DNA of 64,000 bases from Bacteroidales bacterium (lineage in GTDB: Bacteria > Bacteroidota > Bacteroidia > Bacteroidales > UBA932), in NCBI GenBank assembly GCA_017626555.1, contig JAGAIM010000003.1:1-64000 (forward strand). Direction: 5' to 3'. Position numbers and translations under genes: made by a program. The notes beneath the pieces are model-generated. The model was not told the origin of the DNA, made no database searches, and saw only the letters and a list, made by a program, of their open reading frames with translations. Shown one piece after another: positions 20,872-43,852 of the stretch. Every line of letters starts with the position of its first letter. Position 1 is the first letter of the stretch.

Positions 20872-23800
20872 TTAAAGAATGGAAATCTTTGTCACTTCAA
20901 TCTTGTCGCCCTGTATGATAAGAGCATTACCCCAAGTATATGATGCAATCGTTGCCGCCATTTCTGCGGTAATGTCAAACTCAAGATATCCCTTGTCAAG
21001 ACTTGAGTTGTAAGAGTTGAAACCGTGGCCGTAAAGTCCTTCCTGAGAGCCGTCGCTTCCGGTTCCGAACCATTTTTTCCATTGAGGATCAGAAATCTGC
21101 AATGCCCAGCCCTCGCCTCCGGTCACATAGATTCTTACCTTATCACCAGGAGCCGTTCCATTGTTGATCCAGTCATTCACTGTACCTATCTGACAATTTG
21201 AATAACCGTTTGATGTCATCGAGCCTTCCCATATAGAGACTTCAGCATCTGCCGGAAGAAGAGAAATCTTAGTGACGGTAGTCTCAGAACCAGTGAAGAT
21301 CAAGCCATTGCCAGCCTTGATTTCATCAATGAGAGCCTGCGTCAGTTCAAGAGTAATCGAATATGAAGGCTTATCATACTGAGTAGGTATTCCTGCAAGA
21401 TTCGGCCAGCCTTCTGCTGCAGAACGGAGGCTGATGCACCACCAATCCGACGACGGATTGTTTGGAGTCACATACAGTTTGAGTCTGCAGCCGGCCTTGA
21501 CTGTTGACCAGTCATATCCGCCCCAGGCAAGATCCTGATTACCTGACCATCCTCCTGTATTGTGGGAACCTTCCCAGATAACCTTTTCCTCTGTAAGCTC
21601 CGAAGGAATTTCAGGATCCTGAGGTTCCTCCACTGGGAATTCAGCTGACACAACAAATGGGCGGAGAGCACCATTAGCATAAGTCTCCTCTGTAAGATAC
21701 CAGTTATTATTCTCTGCTGAATATCTGATGCCGAAGAATGTAGAAAGATTATATACATCTACGGTACCGTCATCATATGAGTTATCTACCACCCAGAGAT
21801 AGTACGCATAATCCTCACCCTGAGGAAGAACAGTTGTCAGGGAGGCATTTCCCGACTCCCAGTCTGTCTGACCGATATAACGGCCATATGAGTCCTGAAT
21901 AGTGTATGCAGTGAAATCAGGATCATACGTGAATGTAAGGGTATTCCTTACAGTGCTTGCATAATTGATCATATCCTCTGCAGGGAACACGCCTGAAGTT
22001 GCATCTTCAGCAAGAGGTGCCATCACCTTTCCGCTGTTGACAAGCCAATATCCGCCATCAGCTATAGGACCTTCTGGAGAATCTCCACCGCCACCAGGAG
22101 GAATGATCTCATATGGAGACTCTACTCTTGTTAACGTGATCGGATCTGACACGCCAAAGATGTTCTCGCAAACGACCTTTACTGAATTGGCTGTAAGTTC
22201 AGAATACTGTATTTCAAATTCCTCGCCTATCTCATCCCACTCCCAGTCATACTGCATAAATGAAATGACGCCTGAAGCCTTATCTGCAGCTTCTATCTCA
22301 TAGAAACCTATCATATGCAGAGCGAAGCCTGTCTCATCCATTGTTGGGAGAGCGACACTAAGCATTCCGTCCTCTGCGATTCCTAAGTCAAAAAGAACAG
22401 GCATATCGTCAAACTCACCAATCCACTGGTTTCCATCAAGTTTTGCGATGCTTTCACCTGGCTTGTAGCCGGCTTCCATAACCCATACCTTACCGTTAGT
22501 CTTGTCGAAGTATATATCATATACTCCAGAACGGTCAAGATAGATGTCATAACCACCTTCTTTAACGGAAATCTCAGTATTAGGCTTGCTGACTGCCTTA
22601 TCTTCAAGCTGTCCGAATGCATTCCAGGTACCAGTCTCGCAGATCTTGAACTTCACGTAGTCTTCACCTGAAGCATCATCCGAGAATCTGTAGTCATAGT
22701 CGAACTCGATGTTCTTCGCCACAAGGTAACCGTCTTCCTCGACCATAAGACCAGGTTCATTGGAAGGGTTCCAATAGTTAGCCTTCTTGTCTGCATCAGT
22801 ACCCTTGATTGTTCCCGTAACTGTATATGTCACAGTTATTTCAGGTGTCTCATCACCAGGCTTGTAGCCAGGAGTCATAACCCACACTTCCTTCTTTTCA
22901 GGGCTGAAATATACGTCGTATGTACCTGAACCTCCGATATATATGTTCTCATTGTCACCGGCATCTGGATTTGCCTCCTTATATTCCGTGCAGGTCGAAA
23001 CGGCGATAGCCTTGTTGAGTTCGCACTTCTGATCCTTAGCCGCGCGTCCCCACTTGACATCGTCAGCCCAGCTGTTGTTGCCACGGATCTTGAAATTCAC
23101 CTCGCTGAACTCGATGTTCTTGGCCACATACCACTCACCATCCTGAACAAGCTCGGTATCCGGATCTCCATTTCCCCAGTTATTGTTTCCGTATGCACCA
23201 CAGATACCCCAGGAAACAGCGATCTCAACGTGCTCAACTGCCTCTGAAGGAAGCTTGCCCTCTGACATAAAGTAGAACTTGTCAAGAGCTTCAGTGAGAT
23301 ATACGTCGAACTTGCCGCCCTCGGTAAGAGAAATGTCATTGCTTCCTACCTCACCGATCTCATTAGGAGCGATAAGTCCGTGCTTACCCTTGACATTGCC
23401 TTCCCAGTTAGCATTCTTTGTGAAGTGCATACCCTTCTTTGCAGTAATATTTACCGCCTTCGCAACATAGTATCCTTCCTCAAGAACCATTGTAATTCCG
23501 TTAGCGTCAACATTCCATCCTCCTACTGCATCACCGACCAGAATATATGTCTGAGGCTCAGGAGCATTTGCACCGGACTGAGTGATCTTCAAGGTCTTGG
23601 TCAGCTGGTCTGCAACTACGGTAACGACAGCTACTCTTGTCTCTTCAACTTCGTTAGGATCGACTGTAACCTTGACCTTGGCTGCATCAGCCGAACCCTT
23701 GCCGCTCGAAGGGTCCACAGATACCCAATCCTGATCTGCAGAAGCAGTCCAGTCAACATTGGAAGTAACTTCGATTGTCAGTTCTTCACCGGCAGCGCTT

Positions 23801-23916
23801 ACAAGAACAGATGTTTTGTTCACGTCCAGAGAAGGCTGAACCACAGGCTCTTCCTGATTACACGCGGATATCGCAGCTATTGCGAACAATCCGCATAAAA
23901 GAGATCTGATTTTCAT
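20872..23916 (-). CDS. BACON plus SusE/SusF-like multidomain lipoprotein
   Basis: A 1014-residue lipoprotein (MKIRSLLCGLFAIAAISAC). It has a BACON domain (about 28-118, NVDWTASADQDWVSVDPSSG), then three modules of the SusE/SusF type that end in YDVYF...VWVM..GYKPGE, then a beta-sandwich (about 500-600), a segment YWLVNSGKVMAPL resembling carbohydrate-binding beta-trefoil or lectin units, and two C-terminal jelly-roll-like repeats (VIWEGSHNTGGWSGNQ and SIWEGSMTSNGYSNCQ). SusE and SusF domains bind glycans at the surface, so glycan or polymer binding is the likeliest role. Its signal and BACON region closely resemble those of the genes at 28906 and 26311, pointing to shared ancestry. Flanked by its own promoter and terminator. 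Confidence 0.78.
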   Translation of the reverse strand: MKIRSLLCGLFAIAAISACNQEEPVVQPSLDVNKTSVLVSAAGEELTIEVTSNVDWTASADQDWVSVDPSSGKGSADAAKVKVTVDPNEVEETRVAVVTVVADQLTKTLKITQSGANAPEPQTYILVGDAVGGWNVDANGITMVLEEGYYVAKAVNITAKKGMHFTKNANWEGNVKGKHGLIAPNEIGEVGSNDISLTEGGKFDVYLTEALDKFYFMSEGKLPSEAVEHVEIAVSWGICGAYGNNNWGNGDPDTELVQDGEWYVAKNIEFSEVNFKIRGNNSWADDVKWGRAAKDQKCELNKAIAVSTCTEYKEANPDAGDNENIYIGGSGTYDVYFSPEKKEVWVMTPGYKPGDETPEITVTYTVTGTIKGTDADKKANYWNPSNEPGLMVEEDGYLVAKNIEFDYDYRFSDDASGEDYVKFKICETGTWNAFGQLEDKAVSKPNTEISVKEGGYDIYLDRSGVYDIYFDKTNGKVWVMEAGYKPGESIAKLDGNQWIGEFDDMPVLFDLGIAEDGMLSVALPTMDETGFALHMIGFYEIEAADKASGVISFMQYDWEWDEIGEEFEIQYSELTANSVKVVCENIFGVSDPITLTRVESPYEIIPPGGGGDSPEGPIADGGYWLVNSGKVMAPLAEDATSGVFPAEDMINYASTVRNTLTFTYDPDFTAYTIQDSYGRYIGQTDWESGNASLTTVLPQGEDYAYYLWVVDNSYDDGTVDVYNLSTFFGIRYSAENNNWYLTEETYANGALRPFVVSAEFPVEEPQDPEIPSELTEEKVIWEGSHNTGGWSGNQDLAWGGYDWSTVKAGCRLKLYVTPNNPSSDWWCISLRSAAEGWPNLAGIPTQYDKPSYSITLELTQALIDEIKAGNGLIFTGSETTVTKISLLPADAEVSIWEGSMTSNGYSNCQIGTVNDWINNGTAPGDKVRIYVTGGEGWALQISDPQWKKWFGTGSDGSQEGLYGHGFNSYNSSLDKGYLEFDITAEMAATIASYTWGNALIIQGDKIEVTKISIL

Positions 23917-26351: not shown

Positions 26352-28334
26352 TTACTCTACAACTTTGATTACAGGGCTTGTTCCCGCTGCACCTGCGATA
26401 CGGCAAGTACCACCATTAGGTGCCTCGACAAACGCTTCGTTGCTTGACTGTCCGTTAGCAACGCAGAGCATACGGAACTTGACATTCTTTGTTGCTGCAG
26501 AAAGAGTCACTGTTGCATTTACCTCAACATTCTTCTTTCCATCATCAAACATAGCAATATTGTAGTTGAACTCCTGCTCATTGAGAGTATATGATTGGGT
26601 CTCCATCGCAGGCTTCCAGTCAGCACCATCAAGATACTCAAGTCTCCAGTATTTGTGACCGGTCTTTGAAGTTCTTGTGATATAACTGATGCTCACCTTT
26701 GTACCGGCTGCATACTCTGTTCCGTCAGTTGCCTCGAAGAGCCAGTAGTCACCAGGCCAGATACCTGTTACGTACGGATGTCCTGACGAACCTACGATTC
26801 TTGTAGCCTTTCCTTCAGTATCGATTTCGTTCTTATCAACCTGTACATAAGAAATCTTACCCTCACCTGCAACATTAGCGGCAACATACTTTCCACCGTC
26901 ACCTGCATTCTTATCAGCAACACCGGCAGTTCCTCCGAAGTTGTCAGCATAAGCAGTCATAGCATCAGCAGAGAAAAGCCACTCAGTATGGAGAAGAGAA
27001 GGCTCTGGTTCTGGTTCCGCTGCCACAAGAGATACAAAAATCGCATTCTTACCCTGTGGAGTTCCATTATATGAAGTACGTGCGGTCTGGATTGTGATTG
27101 TATCGCCTACCTTCGCACCGGATGCTTCCCAATACTTTGGCTCGCCTTCTGGGCTGCAGAGACCATAGATATAAACTTCGCCTGTCTCATCCTTGAGATA
27201 GAAATTACCATAAGTGGTATTGGCCACACTTGTAATGACTCCTGTAAGTTGATAAATTGTAGCATCCTCAGCAGCCGCAAGGAATTCTGCCACTGTCGCA
27301 ACAACCGGATCTGCAGGTACTTCTGGCTCCGCGATTGGATCTTCAACAAGCACAAGTGCAGGATATGCCCCCCTCTCTTCTGCATAACATCCGTATGAAT
27401 TATATGCCGAATCGAACTGGATTGTGCTCATTGTATCAAAGTTGGCAATATAATATGTGCCATCACCCATTGGATAGATTTCCCAATAATATGCATCGGA
27501 AGCCGGATCCAGTTCTCCTACATTGAAACTCTGATACTCTGCCTTCTGATAAAGATATTTGCCTTTGCTATCCTGGATAGTATAGAGAACATATTCTGGA
27601 TCAGGTGACTGGGCAGCATCAACAAGAGTAAACTTGAATCCGTTGGATGCTGTGCTCTTTCCGTCAACCGCATCAACTGTCTGCAGATAGCCGTATGAAG
27701 TTGTCAACGGTGTTGCAACCCTGCCGTCAGTCATAATCCAATAGTCGCCTGTTGCAAGAAATTCAACTTCCGGTTCCGGAGTTTCGCCTGGCTTGTAGCC
27801 GGCGTTCATAACCCACAGTTTGGCATTCGCCTTGTCGAAATACACGTCGTATGTTCCCTCAGGAGCAGCAAAAGCAACGTTCTCACCGCCGATTATAAGC
27901 GATACCTCTGTATTGACCTGCTGCATCACGTCCTTTTCAGGATATGCATAAGCATCCCAAGTACCTGTCTCAACAATCTTGAGTTCGATCACATTAAAGT
28001 CTCCACCATAAAGTGTTGAGTTCCAAACAAATGGAACATTCTTCGCAACGAAGTAATCACCTTCGGCAACCATCAGTCCACCAGCGTAGTTATTATCCCA
28101 CGCGTGATCAGCGATTGTACCGGTCACAGTATATGTCACATCCTTAGGTTCTGCAGGGACCGGCTCTCTTTCGCCAGGCTTATATCCCTCTTCCATAACA
28201 TATACCTCAAGTTTCTCAAAACTGAAATATACGTCGTATGTACCGGCTACACCGTTGAGTTTGATATCAGCCGCATCTCCACCAAGATTTGCCTTCGAAT
28301 ACTCTGCTGTAACCACTGAAAGTTTTGCATTCAC
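26352..28334 (-). pseudogene. C-terminal fragment of frameshifted BACON/SusE-F/OB lipoprotein
   Basis: The fragment has 660 codons, the first a GTG that is not a real start. Reading the minus strand across 28348-28351, codons CCT GGA in the upstream frame should continue ACG GAG AAG GGA CTT GTG; one base is missing. It carries a SusE/F-like module ending VYVMEEGYKPGE, a second ending LWVMNAGYKPGE, a lectin-like YWIMTDGRVATPL unit, one OB module (TVAEFLAAAEDATIYQLTG, YGNFYLKDETGEVYIYGL) and a C-terminal beta-sandwich. If the frame were restored the whole protein would be about 851 residues. It lies 40 bases upstream of the broken 25766 gene. Confidence 0.75.
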
Positions 28335-28906
28335 AAGTCCCTTCTCCGTCCAGGTGCATAACCGATATTGGTCGCGTCATCCCAAGATGCGTTACCACGG
28401 ATCTTGAAGGTAAGTTCTGTGAACTGGGCACCCTTGGCTACAATCCACTCGCCTTCCTTGGTCATAGGAACATCTGAAGCCCACTGATTATCAACGAAGC
28501 ATCCCATCATACTCCAAGCCACTTCTGGCTCTGGTTCAGGCTCTGGCTCCTGAGATGTAACACCGGCCTGAGTGATCTTCAACGTCTTGGTGAGTTTCTC
28601 CGCTGCTACTGTCACGGTCGCGGTTCTCGCTTCCTCCGACTCATTAGGCTCCACTGAAACAGTCACCTTGGCTGCGTCCTTGGAACCCTTGCCGCTGGCA
28701 GGATCCACTGACACCCAGTCCTGGTCTGCAGATGCTGTCCAATCTACATTGGAGGTAACCTCAAGGGCTACGCTGCCGCCCTCTGCACCCACTGATGCTG
28801 TTGTCTTGTTCAAATCAAGTTCCGGAGTCACTACAGGTTCCTCCTGATTACACGCCACGGTTGCTGCCATAGCAAGCATACCGAGCAACAAATGTTTGAT
28901 TTTCAT
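28331..28906 (-). pseudogene. N-terminal fragment of the same frameshifted lipoprotein
   Basis: This 191-residue reading starts at a good ATG with a lipoprotein signal (MKIKHLLLGMLAMAATVAC), a complete BACON domain (about 28-118), a Glu/Pro linker and the start of a SusE/F-like module (WSMMGCFVDNQWASDVP). It then runs out of frame after NIGYAPG, adding five aberrant residues (RRRDL) before a stop. The parallel segment of the 20872 gene continues smoothly (KWGRAAKDQKCELNKAIAV), which supports a one-base deletion rather than a natural end. As read, a secreted BACON-only fragment could still be made. An assembly error remains possible. Confidence 0.78.
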
Positions 28907-29046: not shown

Positions 29047-32000
29047 TTATGGAAGAGTTACCTCAAGCATATCTGCATACTTGTCAGGCATTGCACCTGT
29101 AGCATTCCACTCGGCATCCAGTGTGAGAATTCCCATATATACTTTCTCACCAGCAAGAACGGCATTTGCTGAACGAGGGAAAGCGAATGTCCAGGTAACA
29201 AGATCACCATCTACAACCTTCTGTACGTCAACAGTTTCTTCTCCTACAGTCAGAGTAAGATCCGAACCGCTGATAGCACCACAACGCTCTGCATTGTACT
29301 CCACATCGCCAATAGCATTATTCCACCAGCCATAGAAGCCTTTACCTGCTGTTCCGTTTGTCTTGTCATAGAACGAAATGGTGAGACCATCCGTTTTCTC
29401 CTCTGCCTTAGAAATTGAAGCAACAAGACGGATGTTGATGTTATCAGCATCTGCATAATACTTGACGTTTCTGAGAACCTGACGACTTGAACTTGCACTC
29501 TCTGGAAGGTCGTATGACACTGCAGTCTCCCAAGGATCTGCTGCAGGAGCACCTTTCTCGTGAGAAACGTAGAAAGCGCTTCCAACCTGTGCTGTGCCCT
29601 TGTATGCTGACCTTACACCAACAAGTGTTACGATGTCGCCCTCAACAAGTCCGAGAGACTCGAACATCTTTGAAGGACCACCCCAGCCGGAAAGAAGACC
29701 ATATACATATACTGAACCGGTCTCATCCACGATATCGAAGTTACCGTAAGTGGTATTGGCGATTTTAGAAACCTTACCTGTGAGGCGATAGTAAACTTCC
29801 TTCGACTCAGGTGCTGCGAGGAATTCCTCGACAGTCTTGGTTGCAACAGGCTTGTGATCCTTGACAGTGACATTCTTCATCTGAGGTGAGCCCTTGTAAG
29901 AAACCTTAGGACCGACTACTGTAACGATGTCACCTGCTTTGATGTTGAGGCTGCTCCAGTTTGCACCGTTGCCCTCAGCATCCAATGTACCATAGACATA
30001 AACCGATCCTGTAGCATCCTGAATATAGATGTTGCCATACTTATCGTTAACCACCTCTGTGATATATCCGGTAACCTCATAAAGTTTGTTTTCATCATCT
30101 TCAGCAGCATTGATCTCGGCTGCAGTTGCAACTGTAGGCGCAGCAGCGGAAGCCTGAGTAACTTTGAGTACCTTATCAGAAGCACCGTCTGCCTTTGCAG
30201 TCACTGTGTGAACGATAGCAGCATCTGTTGTGTTTGCTGCGAAAGTCATCTTCACTGTAGCATTTCCTTCGCCAGAAGTCTTGTCAAGAGTAACCCCCTC
30301 ACTTGCAGTAAGGCTCCACTTGAGGTTAGACTTGATGTCGAATGAATACTCTGTTGCCTCCGGTGCCACAGTGTCCTCTGTCTTGGAGAATGAAAGTTCT
30401 GGGAATACATAGTCACCAGCGTCCTTTACAGAAGTGACGACCAGATTCGCAAACTTGAATGCACCAGAAGACTGTGATACGCTGAGGAAGTATCCGCTGA
30501 GAGCCACAACCTTGTCTTTATAGTCGGCAAGTTTGAGAGACTCGAGAGGATTGTAAAGAGAACCCTGATATGGTGAACCTGCAATCTCGACATTATGGTA
30601 TTTTCCATCGATAGTGAGTTTACCGATCATAGTTGCATACTCTACCTTGATAGCGATCTCCTTCTCTTTGTTTGCAGGGTCAACAGTATCCTTAAGAGCA
30701 CCGATTACCTCATCAAGTTTTGCAGCGTCATAAAGAACAGCCTCAGGATATTTGACCTCCTCAGGTTTCTCAGAAACCTTCTCCTCGAAATATGGAGTCT
30801 TGAGTTGAGCAGAGAAGTTGTATGCGCCGAGAGCCTCAGCAGCGGCCATAACCTTGTCTCCAATCACCACGTTGCACTTCCATCCTTCCTCCGGATGATA
30901 TATGAGGATGTTGCCTGTACCGTCGTTAAGGATATATCCCTGTGAACAGAGAGCGACAACAGTTCCTTCTACACAGATGCCTTCTCCTACCTTGGTTGCA
31001 TCCTTGATCGGAGTAGGATCCGGAATCATACCCTTCTGAGTGATGGTATATGTCATCTCTGTAGCACCATCATCATTAGAAGATTTAAGGATAATGGCAC
31101 CCTTTCTTGGAGCAGCCTTCTCCATATACTCGGAAATAGCGAAAGTAACGATTGCAGTATCAGCAGGGTTTGGCTCGATCTTGGTCGGGTTACCCGGATA
31201 TGTATCCACTCCGACAATCGACACCCAACTCTTTGAATCCTTGTCAACCGTAGGATAAAGGCCCTCACCCTTGAAAGCAACCTTAACGTTGAATTCTCCA
31301 CCTTCCTTCTCGTAGATGGTCTCCTCAGTGATTATCTTAAGGAGAGACTTCTCGATGCTGATGACAGTCACGTCAACAAGTTCGATTGTAGAACCATAAG
31401 TAAGTTTAGGACCTTCAACCTCAACAACGTCACCCACTTCCATTCCCCAACTTTCATAGTTCTTGGTCTTTCCGTCCTTGTCGAGAGTACCATATACATA
31501 TACTTCACCGGTACCATCGTCAAGATACCAGTTTCCGTATGTGGTATTGGCGATTCCGGTACATACGCCCTTCACTCTATAAGTCTTTCCGTCCGGGCCA
31601 GCAATTACCTCGGCACAAGTAGCAGAAGATGCCTCGAGGGAGCCCTGACGGATCTTCACAAACTGAGAGTTGATACCTGCTCTGATGCAGAGTTCGATCT
31701 CACGTCCACCGTCAACCTTGCCGGCAGTGAATTTAACAACATTCTCTCCTGCCTCACCAGACAGTGTATTTACAGTGAGCCAAGATGGATCGACAGACGT
31801 TACAGTCTCTACACCTGTTTCCTTATCCTTCGAACGCTTGATAACGTTAGGCCATACATCCTCTGTATAGAGTGTGTCGAAAGCCCACGCCTCTGTTGCG
31901 TTGATCTTGAGTTCTACTGAACCACCTTCCACAGGAATGACGAGCATAGTCTTGTCCAACTTGATGTTCTCGAAGGAGTCTGTACCCATCTCGTCCACGC

Positions 32001-32055
32001 AGCCAACAAAGAACAAGGCTGCAAGAATCATTGAGAATAAATATCTAAGTTTCAT
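29047..32055 (-). CDS. lipoprotein with BACON-like domains and four OB-type modules
   Basis: I start at the ATG 32055 (MKLRYLFSMILAALFFVGC, lipoprotein); the frame upstream begins only with TTG. The 1002 residues alternate beta-sandwich and OB-type units: BACON-like (35-140), OB1 (YGNWYLDDGTGEVYVYG), sandwich, OB2 (GYILNDGTGNILIYH), BACON (about 540-620), OB3 (YGNIYIQDATGSVYVYG), OB4 (YGNFDIVDETGSVYVYGL), and a C-terminal jelly-roll-like domain. The OB signature YGN-x-x-x-x-D-x-TG-x-VYVYG is the same as in the 14143 and 26352 genes. It follows an Oar-like receptor by 18 bases, so it probably hands ligand to it. No catalytic residues are seen; ligand unknown. Confidence 0.8.
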   Translation of the reverse strand: MKLRYLFSMILAALFFVGCVDEMGTDSFENIKLDKTMLVIPVEGGSVELKINATEAWAFDTLYTEDVWPNVIKRSKDKETGVETVTSVDPSWLTVNTLSGEAGENVVKFTAGKVDGGREIELCIRAGINSQFVKIRQGSLEASSATCAEVIAGPDGKTYRVKGVCTGIANTTYGNWYLDDGTGEVYVYGTLDKDGKTKNYESWGMEVGDVVEVEGPKLTYGSTIELVDVTVISIEKSLLKIITEETIYEKEGGEFNVKVAFKGEGLYPTVDKDSKSWVSIVGVDTYPGNPTKIEPNPADTAIVTFAISEYMEKAAPRKGAIILKSSNDDGATEMTYTITQKGMIPDPTPIKDATKVGEGICVEGTVVALCSQGYILNDGTGNILIYHPEEGWKCNVVIGDKVMAAAEALGAYNFSAQLKTPYFEEKVSEKPEEVKYPEAVLYDAAKLDEVIGALKDTVDPANKEKEIAIKVEYATMIGKLTIDGKYHNVEIAGSPYQGSLYNPLESLKLADYKDKVVALSGYFLSVSQSSGAFKFANLVVTSVKDAGDYVFPELSFSKTEDTVAPEATEYSFDIKSNLKWSLTASEGVTLDKTSGEGNATVKMTFAANTTDAAIVHTVTAKADGASDKVLKVTQASAAAPTVATAAEINAAEDDENKLYEVTGYITEVVNDKYGNIYIQDATGSVYVYGTLDAEGNGANWSSLNIKAGDIVTVVGPKVSYKGSPQMKNVTVKDHKPVATKTVEEFLAAPESKEVYYRLTGKVSKIANTTYGNFDIVDETGSVYVYGLLSGWGGPSKMFESLGLVEGDIVTLVGVRSAYKGTAQVGSAFYVSHEKGAPAADPWETAVSYDLPESASSSRQVLRNVKYYADADNINIRLVASISKAEEKTDGLTISFYDKTNGTAGKGFYGWWNNAIGDVEYNAERCGAISGSDLTLTVGEETVDVQKVVDGDLVTWTFAFPRSANAVLAGEKVYMGILTLDAEWNATGAMPDKYADMLEVTLP

Positions 32056-32073
32056 AATCTTCTTCAAAATAAA

Positions 32074-35000
32074 TTAGTTAAACATATACTTTATTCCCAC
32101 TGAAGCATACCAGCACTGACCTATTGCGATGCTAGGCACAAATGTCTGAATATTTCCGTCAACCTTCTTAGGTGTAGAGAACACAGGATATCCTTCTGCG
32201 TCAACGCTCTCAAACTTGAGGATACGTCCCTCATTGAGGTCTGAGTTCATATACTTGCTGACTCCCCAATTAGAATTGAAGATATTAAGGAGATTCTTGA
32301 TGTCCACGCTAAGTTGAAGTTTGTTCACTGTCTGACCGATCCTGACCTTGAAATCGTGCTTATAACTGAAGTCAAGTCTGTGAACCCAAGGAGAATACAC
32401 GCTGTAAGCCTCTGCGTATTTGCCCTGGTTCTTGCTGAGATACTTGTCATTATGAACGTATGCCATAAAACGGTCACGGTCCTTCTCAGAAGCGAAACGG
32501 AACTCGTTATTTGCAACCTGCTCATCTGTAGGAATATAGAGGGCATCATAATTATAACCGTCGCCATTCATATCGTTTGCAAGCATATATGAATAGTTGT
32601 ATCCGCCTCTCCAAGCCTCATAAATCAGACTGAAATGATTTCCAGACTTGTCGCTGTATGTACCTGAAACCACTGCACGGTCAGGAGTAACATACTGTGA
32701 GTTATGAAGTTTGATATTGTTCGGACCCTCTACTGTAGGAACGTATGTGAATGCTGACTCTGCTGCTGAACCAGGCATACCTGTGAGTTCCTTTGAAGCA
32801 GTGTGAGTATAAGCAGCCATCAGGCTGAGTCCTTCTACCGGACGCATATTGATTGTCACACTTCCTGAGTATCCGTATCCCTTGTGAGTGTTCTCCAGAA
32901 CGAATGCCTTTGTTCCGGTTCTGAAGGTTCCTGGGTACATCGGACGGGCATCAGCACCGTTGAGTCTTACGAAACCATTGACAGGAAGCATACTCCAGTC
33001 GGAAATTGTCACACCGTTGACTGTCTTGTTGTAAATTCCTTCAACAGAGATTGTGAATGGGAATGAAACAGGAACTGTGTAATCGAGAGCGAGTGATGTC
33101 TTCCATACCTGAGGCATCTTGAACTTAGGATCCACTGCAGAAATAGAAGAAGGAACAGCACCCTCATCTGGTGAGATTGTATCAGGATAACCGAGAGAAT
33201 GAAGTTTGTCGAGAAGAGCCTGGGTTGTAGCCTTTCCGTTTGCATCTGTCACAAGACCGCCCTTGAATTCATCCATAGTGAATCCCATCTTTTCAGCGTT
33301 CTTAGCATTGATCTGTGCCTGGTACTGAACCATACCTGAGTTAGTAGGCATATTGGTGAAGAACACGAGAGGGAGACGTCCTGAGAAGAGACCAGTACCT
33401 CCACGGAGTGTAAGGCTCCTGTTCTCAAGGATATGCCAGTTGAAACCTATACGAGGTGAAACTGTAAGGCTTGCGTTTGGCCATTTGCCTGTGTCGATTG
33501 TACGCACGCCACCGTCAACTGTCGGATACTCGATAGCCTTGATTGCAGCGTTGGTCATAAGGTCGCTGTTATCGAAGAAAAGACCGTCGAGACGAAGACC
33601 GTAAGTAAGTTTGAAAGCCTCGTTGATATTCCACTCATCCTGACCATAGATACCTGCCTTATGGAACTGCACGCGGGCTGCAGGGTTAGTCTCGCCGTCG
33701 TATCCGTAAGTGAGACAAACCACCTCAGGAGCAGCACCATTGATGAAATCATCTACGCTATCATAACGATAATAGCCGGTACCGTTTCTCATATATGCGT
33801 TGTCAGCCATCTGATACTCATAGTTCACGCCCATTGTCACCTTATGGTTGCCGGCATAGTAAACGAGGTCATCCTTGATGTTTGCTACAGTGTTGTGCAC
33901 TGCATTGTTCCAGGTGAAGAGTTCGTAACCGAGAGCCATATACTGAGTTGTAGTACCTGTTCCATCGTGGATGTCGATGAATGGGAACTCACTCGAATTT
34001 GTGCCACGGATGTCATCAAGTTTTGAGAACGTCGCGAGGAACTGATTTGAAAGGTTGTCGTTGATACGGCTATTGAGATCGACAGACAATGTATGAACGA
34101 GATTGTTCATAGAATACATCGAGTTAGCAAAAGCCATAGAGTAGAGCGATGTACGAGAGTATGCAGAACGTGTACCACCGTCCATTGAAGAAGCGTTAGG
34201 AGCGTTCCACTTTGTATTGTTGGTATAGTTGTAACGAACTGCAAGACGGTTGTTGTCATTGATGTTCCAGTCTATACGTGCAAGGAGTTTGAGGTTGTTC
34301 TGGTCAGCAGGGAAATCTGTGTATGAACCTGTGTCATAGCCGTATTTATCCATTACGTGGTTCTTCACTCTTTCCATATCCTCGATAGAACAGTATGAGA
34401 GATACTTGTCATTCACACCCACACCGTCCTCAGATGCTCTCCAGCGTACAGCCACAGAAGGAGTCTGAGAATACTCTGCATTCACGAAGAAGAAGAGTTT
34501 GTTCTTGATGATAGGACCACCGAGTGTGAAACCGTAAGTAGTGTTGCGGTCACGGTCACGTGCTCCTGCAACCTCTACACCAGCAACCTGATTACCACGC
34601 ATATTCTCGTTGCGGTGATAAACGTATGCAGTACCCTTGAATGTGTTTGTACCTGACTTGGTGATTGCGTTCACACCACCACCGATGAAGTTTGTCTGAC
34701 GAACATCGTATGGAGATATTACCACCTGCATTTCCTCGATTGCATCAATAGAAATAGGGTTTCCACCTCCTGGAAGACCATCGTTAAGACCGAAGTTGTT
34801 GTTGAAGTTCGCACCATCGACTGTGAAGTTTGCAGTACGTCCGTCAACACCTCCGAAGGTCATTCCGTTTCCTCCGTATGGAGAAAGTCTTGTTACATCA
34901 GTAAGACTTCTGCTGATTGTAGGCAGAGATGTCATCTGCTCGCTTGAAATGTTTGTAGCAGCACCTGTCTTCTCCGCTGCAAACTTTGAAGCCGCTGCTC

Positions 35001-35370
35001 CGATTACCATTGCTTCGCTAAGCATTTCCGAATCCTCATTGAGAGTTGCGTTCAATGAAGAAGTCTCAGCGAGTTGGAGGGTAAGATCTGTGTAAGTAAC
35101 AGTCTGATAACCCAGACAGGTGAATTCTACCGCGTAAGGACCACCGGAACGCATACCATTGATGGTATAACGACCTGCCTCGTTGGTAGTAACGCCATAG
35201 ACGGTTCCGGAAGGAGTGTGGGTTGCAATCACTGCAACACCTACAACAGGCTCTCCGTTAGCGTCAACAACGCGTCCACCCAGAGCAGATGTAGTCACCT
35301 GTGCGAAGGCAACTACGCTCATAAGTGTTGCCACGAAAATGGCAACAAGACACTTAATTGCTTGTTTCAT
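32074..35370 (-). CDS. Oar-like TonB-dependent receptor (in frame)
   Basis: A 1098-residue outer-membrane receptor with a clean signal (MKQAIKCLVAIFVATLMSVVAFAQ), a CarboxypepD_reg domain (about 28-110, LGGRVVDANGEPVVGVAVIA), a plug (LPTISRSLTDVTRLSPYGG, then VDGANFNNNFGLNDGLPGGGNPISIDAIEEM) and a large barrel ending ASVGIKYMFN. This is the Oar subtype, which lacks a SusD partner. It heads a two-gene operon with the OB/BACON lipoprotein. It is a paralogue of the out-of-frame receptor at 35605-38872 and shows the same pattern throughout, so it may supply the function when that one is off. Confidence 0.92.
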   Translation of the reverse strand: MKQAIKCLVAIFVATLMSVVAFAQVTTSALGGRVVDANGEPVVGVAVIATHTPSGTVYGVTTNEAGRYTINGMRSGGPYAVEFTCLGYQTVTYTDLTLQLAETSSLNATLNEDSEMLSEAMVIGAAASKFAAEKTGAATNISSEQMTSLPTISRSLTDVTRLSPYGGNGMTFGGVDGRTANFTVDGANFNNNFGLNDGLPGGGNPISIDAIEEMQVVISPYDVRQTNFIGGGVNAITKSGTNTFKGTAYVYHRNENMRGNQVAGVEVAGARDRDRNTTYGFTLGGPIIKNKLFFFVNAEYSQTPSVAVRWRASEDGVGVNDKYLSYCSIEDMERVKNHVMDKYGYDTGSYTDFPADQNNLKLLARIDWNINDNNRLAVRYNYTNNTKWNAPNASSMDGGTRSAYSRTSLYSMAFANSMYSMNNLVHTLSVDLNSRINDNLSNQFLATFSKLDDIRGTNSSEFPFIDIHDGTGTTTQYMALGYELFTWNNAVHNTVANIKDDLVYYAGNHKVTMGVNYEYQMADNAYMRNGTGYYRYDSVDDFINGAAPEVVCLTYGYDGETNPAARVQFHKAGIYGQDEWNINEAFKLTYGLRLDGLFFDNSDLMTNAAIKAIEYPTVDGGVRTIDTGKWPNASLTVSPRIGFNWHILENRSLTLRGGTGLFSGRLPLVFFTNMPTNSGMVQYQAQINAKNAEKMGFTMDEFKGGLVTDANGKATTQALLDKLHSLGYPDTISPDEGAVPSSISAVDPKFKMPQVWKTSLALDYTVPVSFPFTISVEGIYNKTVNGVTISDWSMLPVNGFVRLNGADARPMYPGTFRTGTKAFVLENTHKGYGYSGSVTINMRPVEGLSLMAAYTHTASKELTGMPGSAAESAFTYVPTVEGPNNIKLHNSQYVTPDRAVVSGTYSDKSGNHFSLIYEAWRGGYNYSYMLANDMNGDGYNYDALYIPTDEQVANNEFRFASEKDRDRFMAYVHNDKYLSKNQGKYAEAYSVYSPWVHRLDFSYKHDFKVRIGQTVNKLQLSVDIKNLLNIFNSNWGVSKYMNSDLNEGRILKFESVDAEGYPVFSTPKKVDGNIQTFVPSIAIGQCWYASVGIKYMFN

Positions 35371-35604: not shown

Positions 35605-38600
35605 TTAAAACATCCAACGGAGGCTGAGGAGCATCTGCCAAGTGTTGTATGTGTTGGTAGACACTGTCCACTCTGGAGCCGAGAATGTATATGTACCATT
35701 ATTGTAGGCGAGGATCTGTTCTGAATTAACTTTCTTTGCAACACCCCAATTGCTGTTGAAGAGATTACCGATATTGTTGATATCGAATCCGACCTGAACA
35801 GTATTCTCTCTGCCGGCTACATTGAAGTTGATATCCTGAGCGAACTTGAAGTTGAAGCGGTGGTTCCACGGAACAGTCACTCCACCTCTCTCCGAATATT
35901 CACCTCTGTGCTTACTGAGATAAGAATCGTTCCTTATGAACTTCTCGAACTCATTCCTGTTCTCTTCTGATGTGAACGGCATATTTGCAAGTTCTTTCTC
36001 AGTAGGTATATAGACAAGATTATTGGCACCTGTATCACCTGTAACATTATTCATTACGTATGAAATTCTGTTGTAGGAATAGTTACCTACATAACAAAGA
36101 TTCATACCTTCATAGAACAGGCTGAATGTTGACTTGCCCCTATTTCCCTGCTTGATGGCATAACTTAGATTTGCAATCACTCTGTGAGGAGATACGAAGC
36201 CTGAATGACCAAGAGCTGCGACATTCGATCCGTTGACATTATAATTGTTTGCAGAGAAAGCTGAAGATACCTGATCTCCATAACCCTCGCTCAATGACTG
36301 GCTGTCGCTATAAGTATAAGCCGCCATCATAGAAAGACCGAAGTTGAAACTCTTCTGCAACTGTGCTGTAATCGAATAATAGTATCCATCCACATCCGAG
36401 TTGGTGAGATACAGAGGGCTAACAGTCTGGCCTGTACTATTCTTGATGTTCTCAGCACTCCATTTTGCTCTCTTGACAGGCTCACCCGGAAGCTGGATAC
36501 CATCTGGATCCTGTACCATTCCGAGCTTATGAACATAAACGGTGGTGAGATCCTTGTTATAAATACCCTCGAGAGTAGCCTTGATTCCGCCAGGAAGACG
36601 TCCTTCGAGTGCAAGAGATGTCTTCCAGGTTGAAGGAAGCTTGAGATCCTTGTCAAGGATTGTAGCACCTTGAGGAGCAGGAAGATTTTTAGACTCATAT
36701 GCACCCGTAAGGTCATAAAGATCCATTACGATATCATTTACGTTAGTATGGAATCCTATGTCGGTGTTACCCTTCTGGTCATAGTATTGAGCCTGGATGC
36801 AGTTGCTGTTACCAACAGCTGAAACGATCCATACGAATGGGATACGTCCTGTGTAGATACCTGAACCTCCACGAAGAATGAGGTTTCGGTTCTTAAGAAT
36901 ATCCCAATTGAAACCTATACGAGGAGAAACTGAAAGACGTGCTGCAGGAAGATCATCAGTATTGAGACCTTTGAATGATTGTGAAGTCTGTGCAAGTTCA
37001 GAGAACTCAACATTGTGGTTGTTCCGGATCGTAGGATAGAAAGGAAGTTCAAAGCGAAGACCGGCTGTAACTTTGAAGTAATCGCTGATATTGAGTTCAT
37101 CCTGTGCATAAGCAGAAAGCTGCATATACTGGAATGAAGGATATACCACATCATTCAGGTTTGAATTGTTCGGATGTGTGATAGCGAATGCGGCAGGCTT
37201 GACGTTATTCTTGAAATCATCCCAGGAATTGTAGAGATAATATCCTGTACCCATCTGCATATAACCGTTCTTTGTCTCATCCCACTCAAACTGGAGACCG
37301 GCTGTGATGTTGCTGATGCCCTTCATAATGCTGATCTCATCAGTTACAGTGATTGTCTGCACATCACGGAGGTTACCGAGTGTGAACGGATCGAGACCAA
37401 AAGAGGTGATGACAGCTTTCTTTCCGTCATCTGTTGGCTGAAGGATATCCACAGAAGGGAATACATCTCCTGTATGACTGCGTTCCTCATTCTGGTGCGA
37501 CCAGGTGAAACGGAACATATTATTCAGCCTACCGTCAAGGAAGCGTGAGTTAAGTTCTGCAGAAAGCGAAGTGAACTGCTGGAGAGTCTGATAATTTGAG
37601 CCCTGGAAGAACATAGCATAGTCAGAAGTACGGCCATAGTCGTATCTGTTATACATATTATCCTTATTGTGAGACATAGGGCTGACAGATGTCGATGGCC
37701 AGGAATTGACCATATTTGCTGTATGGTTGAAACGTACGTTCAACTTATGATTGTTGCTGATGTTCCAGTCCACACGCGCCATTATTTTCCAGTCCGGAGT
37801 AGCTATGGAATAATTCTGATATGGACCTGGATCATAATCATATGTCTTCTTCAGATAGTCTGCAACCTCATTCATAAAAGCCTCGGTAGGACGTGAATAG
37901 ACACCACCGAACTCATCAGACTCACTTTGACGAGCAAGCTTTGATGAAGGATTCGTCTCTGGAGAATACTCCGCATTGATGAAGAAGAATAACTTGTTTC
38001 TGATGATAGGACCACCCAAAGTGAAACCTGTCACATTCGAGAACGACTTGGTAAGAGAAAGTTTCTCATCTGCTATCCTGTCGCCGGCAAGTTGATCATT
38101 TGTATAGTAGTTATAGACCGAAGCACGCCACTGGTTTGTACCACTCTTAGTAACTGCATTGATCGCACCGCCGGTAAAGCCTGAATGACGAACGTCAAAT
38201 GGAGTGATATCCACGCTAAGTTGCTCGAGAGCGTCAAGAGAGATAGGTGAACCTCCGGCAGGAAGATTTGAACCGATACCGAATGAGTTCTGGAATGCTG
38301 CACCATCAACAGAGACAAAAGACGAACGATAGTTACCGCCACCGAGTGATGTACCGTTTGAGTTCGACGATGACTGTGGAGTAAGCATCATTACATCGGT
38401 AAGAGACCTGTTTACAGTCGGCAGAGCGCTCATTGTCTTCTGGCTCACAGAAGTGCTGACTCCGGCATTGTTCAGGTTCATTCCAGAATCCACGCCGTCA
38501 GCTGTAAAGACTGCAGCATCAAGACCCAAAGCCTCAACCTCCATACCACAATTCAATGTAACCACCTCTCCGATAGGGGCATAAACTTCTGTAAACTCTA

Positions 38601-38872
38601 CAGTTCTGTAACCAAGCATTTCAACCTTAACCGAGTAAGGGCCACCTGGAGTCACTGCATTGATACGATAAGCACCATTGCTGTCGGATGTAGTGTAATA
38701 AGTTGTTCCTGAAGGGGTATGTACAGCTATTACTGCTGCACCGATAACTACACCTTCATTGTCAGAAATTCGTCCTGAAATAGAGGAAGTAGTAACCTGT
38801 GCGAACGCACAAATGATAGATAGGACTGCCCCCCCCTAGCAGGGCAAAAAATCGCTTAACTGATTGTTTCAT
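35605..38872 (-). CDS. Oar-like TonB-dependent receptor, out of frame at a G8 tract (phase-OFF as read)
   Basis: The ATG at 38872 opens MKQSVKRFFALLGG, but eight consecutive G on the coding strand (38836-38829) shift the frame and the reading ends within about 36 codons. With seven G the signal continues AVLSIICAFAQVTT and joins a complete 1088-residue Oar-like receptor. That form has a CarboxypepD_reg domain (ISGRISDNEGVVIGAAVIAV), a plug (SVDGAAFQNSFGIGSNLPAG) and a barrel ending MLLSLRWMF. Downstream of the tract the frame is open to 35605; a conventional gene call would begin at the GTG at 38655 and lose the signal. The body shows no other damage, which fits a switchable gene better than a decaying one. 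Own promoter and terminator. Confidence 0.85.
38829..38836 (-). repeat. G8 homopolymer in a receptor signal sequence
   Basis: Eight C on the plus strand, read as G8 in the coding strand, between codons for LL and the hydrophobic core of the signal peptide. Seven (or ten) G restore the reading frame. Such tracts change length by slipped-strand mispairing. Confidence 0.85.
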
Positions 38873-38908
38873 AGCGCTTTATAATTAATAGGAGTTATAA
38901 TTTCGAGG

Positions 38909-38916
38909 CAAAGATA
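38909..38916 (-). promoter_or_regulatory. -7 box for the phase-OFF receptor
   Basis: TATCTTTG on the minus strand fits TAnnTTTG, 36 bases before the ATG at 38872. It matches the box of the 35370 gene in all eight bases and the following GCC. Confidence 0.55.
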
Positions 38917-41170: not shown

Positions 41171-42730
41171 CTAACTCAAAAAATAATTTAATAGTATTTC
41201 TTCTATTTCTTTAACAGGCAATGAGCTCGGGCTATCATTGACCATCGCTTCTATCCTTTGTTTCTCATTATCTGGAAGCAAGGCTATATCCAGCATCATT
41301 CCTTTATTAAGATCATTCGGCTCGAATTTCTGCAAGCCATTACCGTATTCTCTACAATTATCAGCAAATATTTCCTTAGCGATATCCGTCTGCAGATAGG
41401 CGAATAACAGGTCATCGGACACATCATTATACAAAGTGTGTTTAGGATATACGCAATGAAACGTTGTAAGATTATGAACTCCCGCAAGATTTCGGATAAA
41501 TCTCAATCCCTTCCTGTTAAACACAGTTACCCAAATAGGTGAAGGAGGACGATTTTCCAAGGCATACCAAGGATTCCGGCTAGAAGTAAGATACTTTTTA
41601 TCAATACCTTTAGAAATCCCCATCTTTAAATACTTAAGGATATTCTCATCCTCAGTCCCAACTGCATCTAACAAATATACATTCTTATCTTCATTTCTTA
41701 ATTTCAGAAAATCCTTTTCAGTGAAGAGCGGGCCTTTAACATCTGCACACTTGCACACACAAGGTAGAAGATGTTCTTCGTTAATTCCCTGTTCTACTGC
41801 CTTGCCTTTATTAAACACGAAAAAGTCATTTGCACCTGTAGCGATTCCCCGCATAACTTTAGCATACAAAGAAAAAGGCACCAGATTGCTATATCTATAA
41901 ACATTCGATTCCTGATAATATTTTCTCCATTTGATATCAGGATCAATGTCAGAGAAAGCATATATTCTACTGAATACATCATCCGGTATATCACCATTCA
42001 CACATCGTTTTATGAGCTCCGAACCTTTCAACGCAGGAAGTGCAGTAAAACGAACAGTATCACAGTCAGTTCCATTTTCACAAAGCACCAGACAAGATGT
42101 CGTCAAGGCATCCTCAAATAAACTTTCCTCAAAATTAAAAACTATAATATGACGCAATGCCCTTGTCTTAAGAAGATGATGCTTTACCAATGCACCATAA
42201 TCCGAATTAAGAAATTCAGATGGTACAATATACGCGCATCTTCCTCCGGGCTTAAGCTGATGAATTGATTTCAATAAGAATAGGGTGTATAAGTTGGTAA
42301 AACCGTTCAACTTGCAGGAAAGCCTGGTTTCTATCTCTTCAATTACCTTTTTATTATCATAATCGTGAAATTTGAAATATGGAGGATTACATATAATGCC
42401 ATCATACTTGTTGTCCCAGTCATTATACATATAATCCTGATGAAGAAGATTTATTTTCGGCCCATATAGTTTCTTACTCTCCTGTAATATATTGTCATCT
42501 ATCTCAAATCCTTTTACATCCAACTTCTCCTTCCTGCGCATCAAGCATCGAGAAAATACTCCCAACCCAAAAGCGGGCTCAAGTATAGACACGAGATCGT
42601 CTTTCTTCACCAACCAATCAACCATAACATCGGCCAATGAGATCGGGGTAAAGAATTGAGCATAAAATTTACGATGCTCTAGCGGAGTTCTACGAATATA
42701 ATCCGCTTCTATTGGACTTAAATCCTGCAC
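41171..42730 (-). CDS. type II N6-adenine DNA methyltransferase (TaqI-like, gamma class)
   Basis: This enzyme methylates adenine in the R-M recognition site to protect host DNA. The 519-residue protein has motif X (AQFFTP, 24-29), SAM motif I (ILEPAFGLGVFS, 49-60) and catalytic motif IV NPPYF (115-119), the order of gamma-class methylases, followed by a large target-recognition C-terminal half. It starts with GTG, overlapping the TAG of the nuclease gene (TAGTG). The gene is AT-rich: the 60 bases at 42721-42780 have 20 G+C, while 39241-39300 in metK have 30. That points to horizontal acquisition together with the nuclease. Confidence 0.88.
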   Translation of the reverse strand: MQDLSPIEADYIRRTPLEHRKFYAQFFTPISLADVMVDWLVKKDDLVSILEPAFGLGVFSRCLMRRKEKLDVKGFEIDDNILQESKKLYGPKINLLHQDYMYNDWDNKYDGIICNPPYFKFHDYDNKKVIEEIETRLSCKLNGFTNLYTLFLLKSIHQLKPGGRCAYIVPSEFLNSDYGALVKHHLLKTRALRHIIVFNFEESLFEDALTTSCLVLCENGTDCDTVRFTALPALKGSELIKRCVNGDIPDDVFSRIYAFSDIDPDIKWRKYYQESNVYRYSNLVPFSLYAKVMRGIATGANDFFVFNKGKAVEQGINEEHLLPCVCKCADVKGPLFTEKDFLKLRNEDKNVYLLDAVGTEDENILKYLKMGISKGIDKKYLTSSRNPWYALENRPPSPIWVTVFNRKGLRFIRNLAGVHNLTTFHCVYPKHTLYNDVSDDLLFAYLQTDIAKEIFADNCREYGNGLQKFEPNDLNKGMMLDIALLPDNEKQRIEAMVNDSPSSLPVKEIEEILLNYFLS

Positions 42731-43827
42731 TAAAATTCTCCCTTTATTTCCAATACTGCTCTTAATTTATCAACATCCAGATATGCTGTTCCGCCATTAA
42801 ATGTCACATAAAACAATAAACGGCCCCTGTCCATTTCCTTTCTTACACTCTTGTGATCTGGTTCATCAACTTTATACGCGACCTCAATCCCTGACTTAGA
42901 ACGGATCTTGATTGTATCTTTATTCTGATTTTTGGAATCACTCTCTATGGAGAAAACAAGTCCCTCGTTATCTGGATCAGAGATTATTTCCAATATCTTT
43001 TTAAAAGAGATTCCATACACCTTATCAAAGAAAACCTGGAAATAATAATGAGGAACATTATAAGTCTCTATCCACTTATACACGACCTTCAAATCCTCTA
43101 CTTTAGGAGTTATCGAAAGGTAATCCCTTTTTTGTATCTCCTTTATCGCAGCCTTCAGTTCCTTGAGTTTATCATTCAGAGTTAATAATCGTTCTGAAGA
43201 TCTCCATCCAGGAACCTTGAAATCTGCAATATTCAAAGAATCTTCTGTCAATCTTTCCAGAAGATCTCTATAGTTTATACGGGACTGATGCAGCAGTTCA
43301 TCAGAATATTCACTCAGAATCTCATTTCTAAGTTCCATTGCTCTGGAAGAATAGTAGTCGACACGGCTCTGCATTGCTTCCTCATAATGATCAATGAGAA
43401 ATGCACTTGACCTGACCTCAATACCAGCAATCGCTTTTCTGATATATGAATCTATCTGCGTATGATCCAAATGACTTATATCAAGTCCCAGATTCTCGTC
43501 ATAATCCTCTTTTCTGAATATGAGCAAATCAGGCCGTTTACCGATCTCATCCAATTCTCGCTGGAACTCTTTAAAGAAAACGTCAAATCCAGGTTCTCCA
43601 GCCACAACGGCATCCGATTTTCCATATTTGACTGCAATATAATTCTTCGAAGTCCTATTGATTGCACGCGTCAACAAACTCTCCGCCCAATCACCCTGCT
43701 CCTTATTTGTTATAAAATTTGAACTCGCCTGTGTAGGAGTACGCGCAACATCTCTAGGCAATGAAAAATCAGCCAAAGTATGCGGAACATTTTTGACAAG
43801 TTCCTTGATATCTTCGAAATAAGTCAT
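42730..43827 (-). CDS. type II restriction endonuclease, AccI-like
   Basis: Placed directly upstream of and overlapping the methylase. I choose the ATG at 43827 (365 residues) because AGGAGGAGGG lies 2-11 bases before it, a strong Shine-Dalgarno that is rare in this phylum; the ATG at 43845 would encode that sequence as protein. The N-terminal half has [37 protein letters not shown] and [10 protein letters not shown] (Pro-Asp at 99-100), then [10 protein letters not shown] (E137), a plausible PD-(D/E)xK core with Arg at the last position. Resemblance to the AccI family is from memory; if right, the target would be near GTMKAC. AT-rich like its partner. Confidence 0.7.
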
Positions 43828-43852
43828 ATCCCTCCTCCTAAACATTATACTG

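Follow-up and report, generated by a model that had tools for sequence, protein, structure and literature searches.

A G8 tract in the signal-peptide region of an Oar-like TonB receptor gene from Bacteroidales: a candidate for poly-G phase variation

Introduction

Phase variation by poly-G tracts is well established for the haemoglobin receptors HmbR and HpuAB of Neisseria meningitidis, where the length of the tract sets the ON state (PMC3786947). Whole sets of phase-variable genes with G/C tracts occur in Campylobacter and Helicobacter; for Helicobacter canadensis, 29 tract-associated coding regions are given (PMC8355987, PMC2823697). According to a survey of 99 genomes, tracts are biased to the 5' ends of genes for poly-A/T, but not for poly-G/C (PMC2831843). 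In gut Bacteroidales, phase variation is usually explained by DNA inversion. An example are the SusC/SusD proteins of Bacteroides fragilis, whose phase variation is mediated by an invertase, as cited in a review (PMC11868660). For Ornithobacterium hominis, which also belongs to the Bacteroidota, a putative phase-variation mechanism of adhesin genes is mentioned (PMC13183296).

The locus described below carries a G8 tract in the gene of an Oar-like TonB receptor from a Bacteroidales bacterium. Like the Neisseria genes, it combines TonB-dependent uptake (there hmbR and the lipoprotein gene hpuA) with a poly-G run inside the reading frame (PMC3786947). The Neisseria receptors serve iron uptake in a Betaproteobacterium and their expression was checked, whereas the present case concerns an Oar-like Bacteroidales receptor with a tract in the signal peptide and several such receptors per genome. 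With the Campylobacter and Helicobacter sets, it shares the large number of homopolymer tracts per genome (PMC8355987, PMC2823697). Phylum and target class, i.e. outer-membrane nutrient receptors, are the same as in the Bacteroides fragilis SusC/SusD case, but there a recombinase inverts DNA (PMC11868660), whereas here the frame would change with homopolymer length. The location of long tracts near gene starts, read as a switching device, agrees with the genome survey, although the 5' bias reported there concerns poly-A/T only (PMC2831843) and the tracts found here are poly-G. The mechanism itself is already known from Neisseria and Campylobacter. Among the matches listed in the open-access literature, no report of a poly-G switch in a Bacteroidales receptor was found.

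The tract and the reading frames at the locus

The window is the whole stretch of 64,000 nucleotides that was analysed. Its features of interest are all located on the minus strand:

38908..38916, minus strand: TATCTTTGC, resembling the consensus of the Bacteroidota -7 promoter element; 8 of its 9 bases do not vary among the 6 sequences aligned
38837..38872, minus strand: start codon and first 12 codons MKQSVKRFFALL, the first part of an apparent signal peptide, which aligns with orthologues
38829..38836, minus strand: G8 homopolymer in the signal-peptide core, read directly from the sequence; one of the 22 runs of at least eight G in the genome
38762..38872, minus strand: short frame at the assembled tract length, 36 codons and a stop (OFF product), from reading-frame translation
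35605..38829, minus strand: post-tract receptor frame with the rest of the signal peptide, CarboxypepD_reg and an Oar-like beta barrel, 1,074 codons and a stop
32074..35370, minus strand: paralogous Oar-like receptor, 38% identical, directly downstream, without a G/C run of 7 or more

From position 38872, the minus strand reads ATG AAA CAA TCA GTT AAG CGA TTT TTT GCC CTG CTA, followed by eight G (38836-38829) and CAGTCC. At the assembled length, translation from this ATG yields MKQSVKRFFALLGGGSPIYHLCVRTGYYFLYFRTNF and then meets a stop. The frame beginning with AVLSIICAFAQVTTSS runs uninterrupted from 38829 until its stop codon at 35605, and its 1,074 codons contain no other lesion; the G8 tract puts all of them out of frame with the ATG at 38872. 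Thus, a repeat tract lies at 38829-38836 within a reading frame and its length sets this frame, as in contingency loci. The sequence-only reading had proposed exactly such a disruption of an Oar-like receptor frame by the G8 run, and both the minus-strand sequence and the frames bear this out.

The product of the downstream frame exceeds the Pfam cut-offs for CarboxypepD_reg (6e-17), OMP_b-brl_4 (4e-46) and TonB_dep_Rec_b-barrel (1e-6). An N-terminal CarboxypepD_reg domain together with an outer-membrane barrel (PF13620 and PF25183, both over cut-off) assigns it to the Oar-like receptors, which these two domains mark. No Plug domain (PF07715) was matched by the tract-bearing receptor in Pfam at E<=0.001, and the Plug score of the neighbouring paralogue is below the cut-off. 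Neither TIGR04056, which would indicate the SusC/RagA subfamily, nor any other NCBIfam model matched the window receptor. The sequence-only reading had described the frame as open to 35605 with all receptor domains: the open frame and receptor domains are there, but "all" is a little too strong because a Plug match is missing at that threshold.

A genome-wide protein search revealed one copy of the receptor and the paralogue, i.e. no second allele in the same assembly. Downstream of the two receptor genes, three BACON-domain proteins are encoded (20872-23916, 28331-28906 and 29047-32067). On the other side of the locus (41171-43845), an AccI-type restriction endonuclease gene adjoins that of an Eco57I-type methylase, beside smpB.

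Frequency of long G runs

G/C runs of length 3, 4, 5 and 6 occur 710, 87, 9 and 1 times in the window, which corresponds to an approximately eightfold or larger drop per added base. Apart from the G8 tract, no G/C run in the window reaches a length of 7. When expectations are derived from this run-length decay (continuation probability 0.12), 0.02 runs of at least 8 are expected in 64 kb and one is seen; for the 3.09 Mb genome, about 1 is expected and 22 are seen. Runs of exactly G8 were found 15 times in this genome, and runs of exactly G7 only twice vs about 7 expected. Over 21 genomes from other families in the order, the sums of G8 and G7 runs are 137 and 579, and G8 exceeds G7 in none of the 21, compared with 15 to 2 here.

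Within the genus, G8 outnumbers G7 in 8 of 14 compared genomes and shows no excess in the other 6; most of these genomes were chosen after a tract had been noticed in them, and the split into 8 tract-rich and 6 other genomes was made after the counts were known. Two of them, G017 and G106, had been noticed for a signal-sequence tract, yet belong to the 6 without G8 excess. In an unselected count, 357 of 400 genomes of the genus contain exact-G8 runs, most of them few. The G8 excess is patchy in the genus because only about 25 of the 400 genomes reach 15 or more such runs. All G runs of at least 8 were inspected individually in three genomes: there are 22 in the genome of the window (G000), 47 in G147 and 46 in G393, where 3 of the 46 are located at contig ends and look artefactual. 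At L123 (G301:C142) and at L315 and L325 (G393), the runs of 98, 52 and 14+30 G or C resemble assembly artefacts.

Loss of mismatch repair was considered as a cause of the G-run excess and rejected. A mutS1 match over cut-off was obtained in 17 of 18 genomes, the miss being G356, which is 64% complete, and mutL in 18 of 18. Since both genes were found in the tract-rich genomes, too, such a loss is not a likely cause; the presence of a gene is no proof of its function. In our judgement, a run of eight G is short to serve as a switch where the cell has mismatch repair.

Orthologues of the window receptor

The orthologue set comprises 35 of about 66 listed matches with at least 50% identity; in 34 the signal peptide is readable, and one is cut by a contig end. 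A tract at the homologous site is present in 4 of the 34: G8 out of frame in the window genome, G8 out of frame in G393, G9 out of frame in G147 and G7 in frame in G356. Hence, tract length gives in-frame and out-of-frame states among related copies, as known for contingency loci. The remaining 30 have no tract of 7 or more; among them, one carries G6, one G5 and the others fewer, and the genes are intact. All four tract-bearing orthologues are open for more than 1,060 codons. Among them, dN/dS amounts to 0.075-0.18 at a dS of 1.5-2.9, and to 0.10-0.18 when the window receptor is compared with the other three. These low values argue that the copies which are out of frame in the genomes sampled have been kept under selection. 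The comparison with orthologues that had been proposed along with the G8 tract thus yielded four species with G7, G8, G8 and G9, covering both frame states. In relatives, decay beyond the tract had been named as speaking against a switch; it is absent, and dN/dS is well below 1 in all four species.

The best 80 of at least 591 named relatives include rumen and hindgut Bacteroidales MAGs and, at 52% identity, Candidatus Cryptobacteroides aphodequi. In none of these 80 was a run of at least seven G seen in the signal-peptide region. Judged by sequence similarity, the genus that holds the poly-G-rich species is probably Cryptobacteroides.

The four tract rows lie scattered over a tree of 35, from which L119, a 240-residue fragment with a very long branch, was left out. 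They need 4 changes, which is no better than shuffled labels; a tree including L119 gave 5 changes. The tree thus lends no support to one common origin of the tract among these receptors. The tract at the window receptor appears to be gained and lost, not old and fixed.

Tracts in other TonB receptors

Of the 70 frames that follow a tract in G000, G147 or G393 and comprise at least 150 aa, 60 were scanned with Pfam; the window receptor, among the other 10, was scanned separately. A Plug domain was detected in 26 of the 60. Adding the window receptor and its orthologues in G147 and G393 gives 29 distinct tract-bearing TonB receptors, 5 in G000, 11 in G147 and 13 in G393. The distance from the tract to the first in-frame Met is at most 50 codons in 20 of them, 51-120 in 7, and 156 and 171 in the last two. 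In 2 of the 29, the coding strand reads C instead of G at the tract. Among SusC- and Oar-type receptors, which are over-represented among tract-bearing genes, the tract is placed in the signal peptide, in the linker following it, or in the CarboxypepD_reg/plug region.

Five distinct receptors of G000 carry a sense-strand tract within about the first 120 codons, where 0.055 are expected (Poisson P 4e-9; the 120-codon limit was chosen after the data were seen). For receptor tracts anywhere on the sense strand, 0.47 are expected (P 1.3e-4). At the assembled length, 20 of the 29 receptors are in frame (4 of 5 in G000, 10 of 11 in G147 and 6 of 13 in G393) and 9 are out of frame, as judged by eye from an upstream frame resembling a signal peptide or known domain.

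G147 has an orthologous counterpart for four of the five receptor tracts found in G000, with four-fold sites only 39-49% identical. Across 27 window genes, GGG accounts for 50 of 1,318 glycine codons, and GGGGGG for 0 of 134 Gly-Gly pairs. Outside the tract, 842 glycine codons are shared by 11 orthologue pairs from 6 gene families, which were picked for a tract in both members and of which 6 come from the window receptor. There, GGG is used in one member 51 times and in both never, so that shared codon choice is an unlikely reason for tracts common to orthologues.

One receptor tract differs in length within a single assembly. Contig C179 (27,878 bases) aligns to C75 of the same assembly with no mismatch and one gap, and the G run of a receptor gene comprises 8 residues in C75 and 9 in C179, which starts 16 bases before the run. 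The receptor in question has a Plug domain. This difference could be the trace that a mixed population would leave; homopolymer error could leave it, too. Two other contigs of G000, C100 (L114) and C102 (L115), have equal length and 94% identity in one assembly, which might reflect a strain mixture or a repeated element.

Probable slipped-strand switching and alternative explanations

We consider it likely that the tract is a contingency locus, i.e. that it confers slipped-strand phase variation on a TonB receptor and is part of a wider poly-G set in some species of the genus. Slipped-strand mispairing in the G run would alter the tract length, and the gene would alternate between a short dead peptide, the assembled state, and a complete exported TonB-dependent receptor. 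The window tract would be one member of the sets of 22, 47 and 46 runs counted in the three genomes. In a growing population, such switching would be reversible. It might be beneficial by allowing escape from phages that use the receptor or by diversifying glycan uptake. The candidate phase-variable receptor proposed by the sequence-only reading thus gains support from orthologue tract lengths, from the undecayed gene and from the same arrangement at TonB receptors of this genome and two relatives. It also gains support from the other receptor tract that varies between two otherwise identical contigs of one assembly. The conserved promoter-like element upstream of the gene points in the same direction.

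Assembly or sequencing error, with a true tract that is constant and in frame and a gene that is always on, is improbable, and it is the strongest of the rivals. The assembly consists of 222 contigs, homopolymers are error-prone, and other assemblies of the genus contain G or C runs of 30 to 98 that resemble artefacts. However, at the homologous site the frame is lost in three species, and 10 of the 11 G147 receptor tracts are in frame, which would not be expected under frequent error. Error also leaves unexplained why tracts are placed near receptor starts and why an excess of G8 over G7 is confined to some species.

A recent pseudogene, caused by a one-off irreversible frameshift in this strain, is less probable still. 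The window locus is present on one contig only, so that a single allele is seen, and most orthologues are intact and have no tract. A pseudogene does not fit with 1,074 codons free of other lesions, nor with the finding that three of the four tract-bearing orthologues, including that of the window, are out of frame at a dN/dS still near 0.1, nor with other receptors that show the same arrangement. Least probable of all, and very unlikely, is programmed slippage of RNA polymerase or the ribosome on the G run, which would provide a fixed fraction of full-length product whatever the DNA length. It would likewise keep the tract and a clean downstream frame, but length and phase of the tract vary among orthologues, and the DNA itself varies in tract length between contigs that are otherwise identical. 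Moreover, A/T runs are the better-known site of transcriptional slippage.

A wider set of tract-bearing genes

Receptors are the largest class among the tract-bearing genes that Pfam showed, whereas the tract sets of Campylobacter and Helicobacter are dominated by surface-sugar and other genes. Further tracts are located in genes for hybrid two-component sensors, ECF sigma factors, a FecR protein, acyltransferases, acetyl-xylan esterases and BACON proteins. Some affected genes are apparently unrelated to the surface (a DnaG-like primase, glucuronate isomerase), and about 10 of the 22 G000 tracts lie in no clear gene.

With somewhat more confidence than doubt, we propose that the 22-47 runs of the three genomes form a combinatorial poly-G phasome in some species of this genus of animal-gut Bacteroidales. 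Many TonB receptors would be switched independently, along with sensors, ECF sigma factors, an anti-sigma (FecR) protein and esterases, and, with no inversion of DNA, a clone would turn into a mosaic of cells with different receptor repertoires. From one species to another, a particular receptor would repeatedly gain and lose its tract despite the mismatch-repair genes. If true, a homopolymer phasome directed at nutrient receptors would add a second route, free of recombinases, to DNA inversion in a group that is known chiefly from metagenome assemblies. Such switches would tend to escape annotation pipelines, as the OFF state is recorded as a pseudogene. The question can be tested with existing data: tract lengths are countable in public metagenome reads that cover different animals, diets and levels of phage pressure.

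Several single tracts deserve mention. In G000, an Acyltransferase-3 gene (L040, G000:C68:49890) has a G8 run after 12 codons and is out of frame as assembled, which makes it a second OFF candidate in this genome. A Melibiase-like gene (L043, G000:C75:61146) is broken at a G9 tract after about 250 codons. At L033 (G000:C31:1454), a G10 run immediately precedes an ATG; in this position, it could act on transcription or on the initiation of translation, but not on the frame. An apparent lipoprotein signal sequence in another genome (L120, G092:C29) contains an out-of-frame G9 tract. Finally, acetyl-xylan-esterase-like genes from two species (L048 and L312) have a common in-frame G8 run that follows about 495 codons of the gene and is thus remote from the start.
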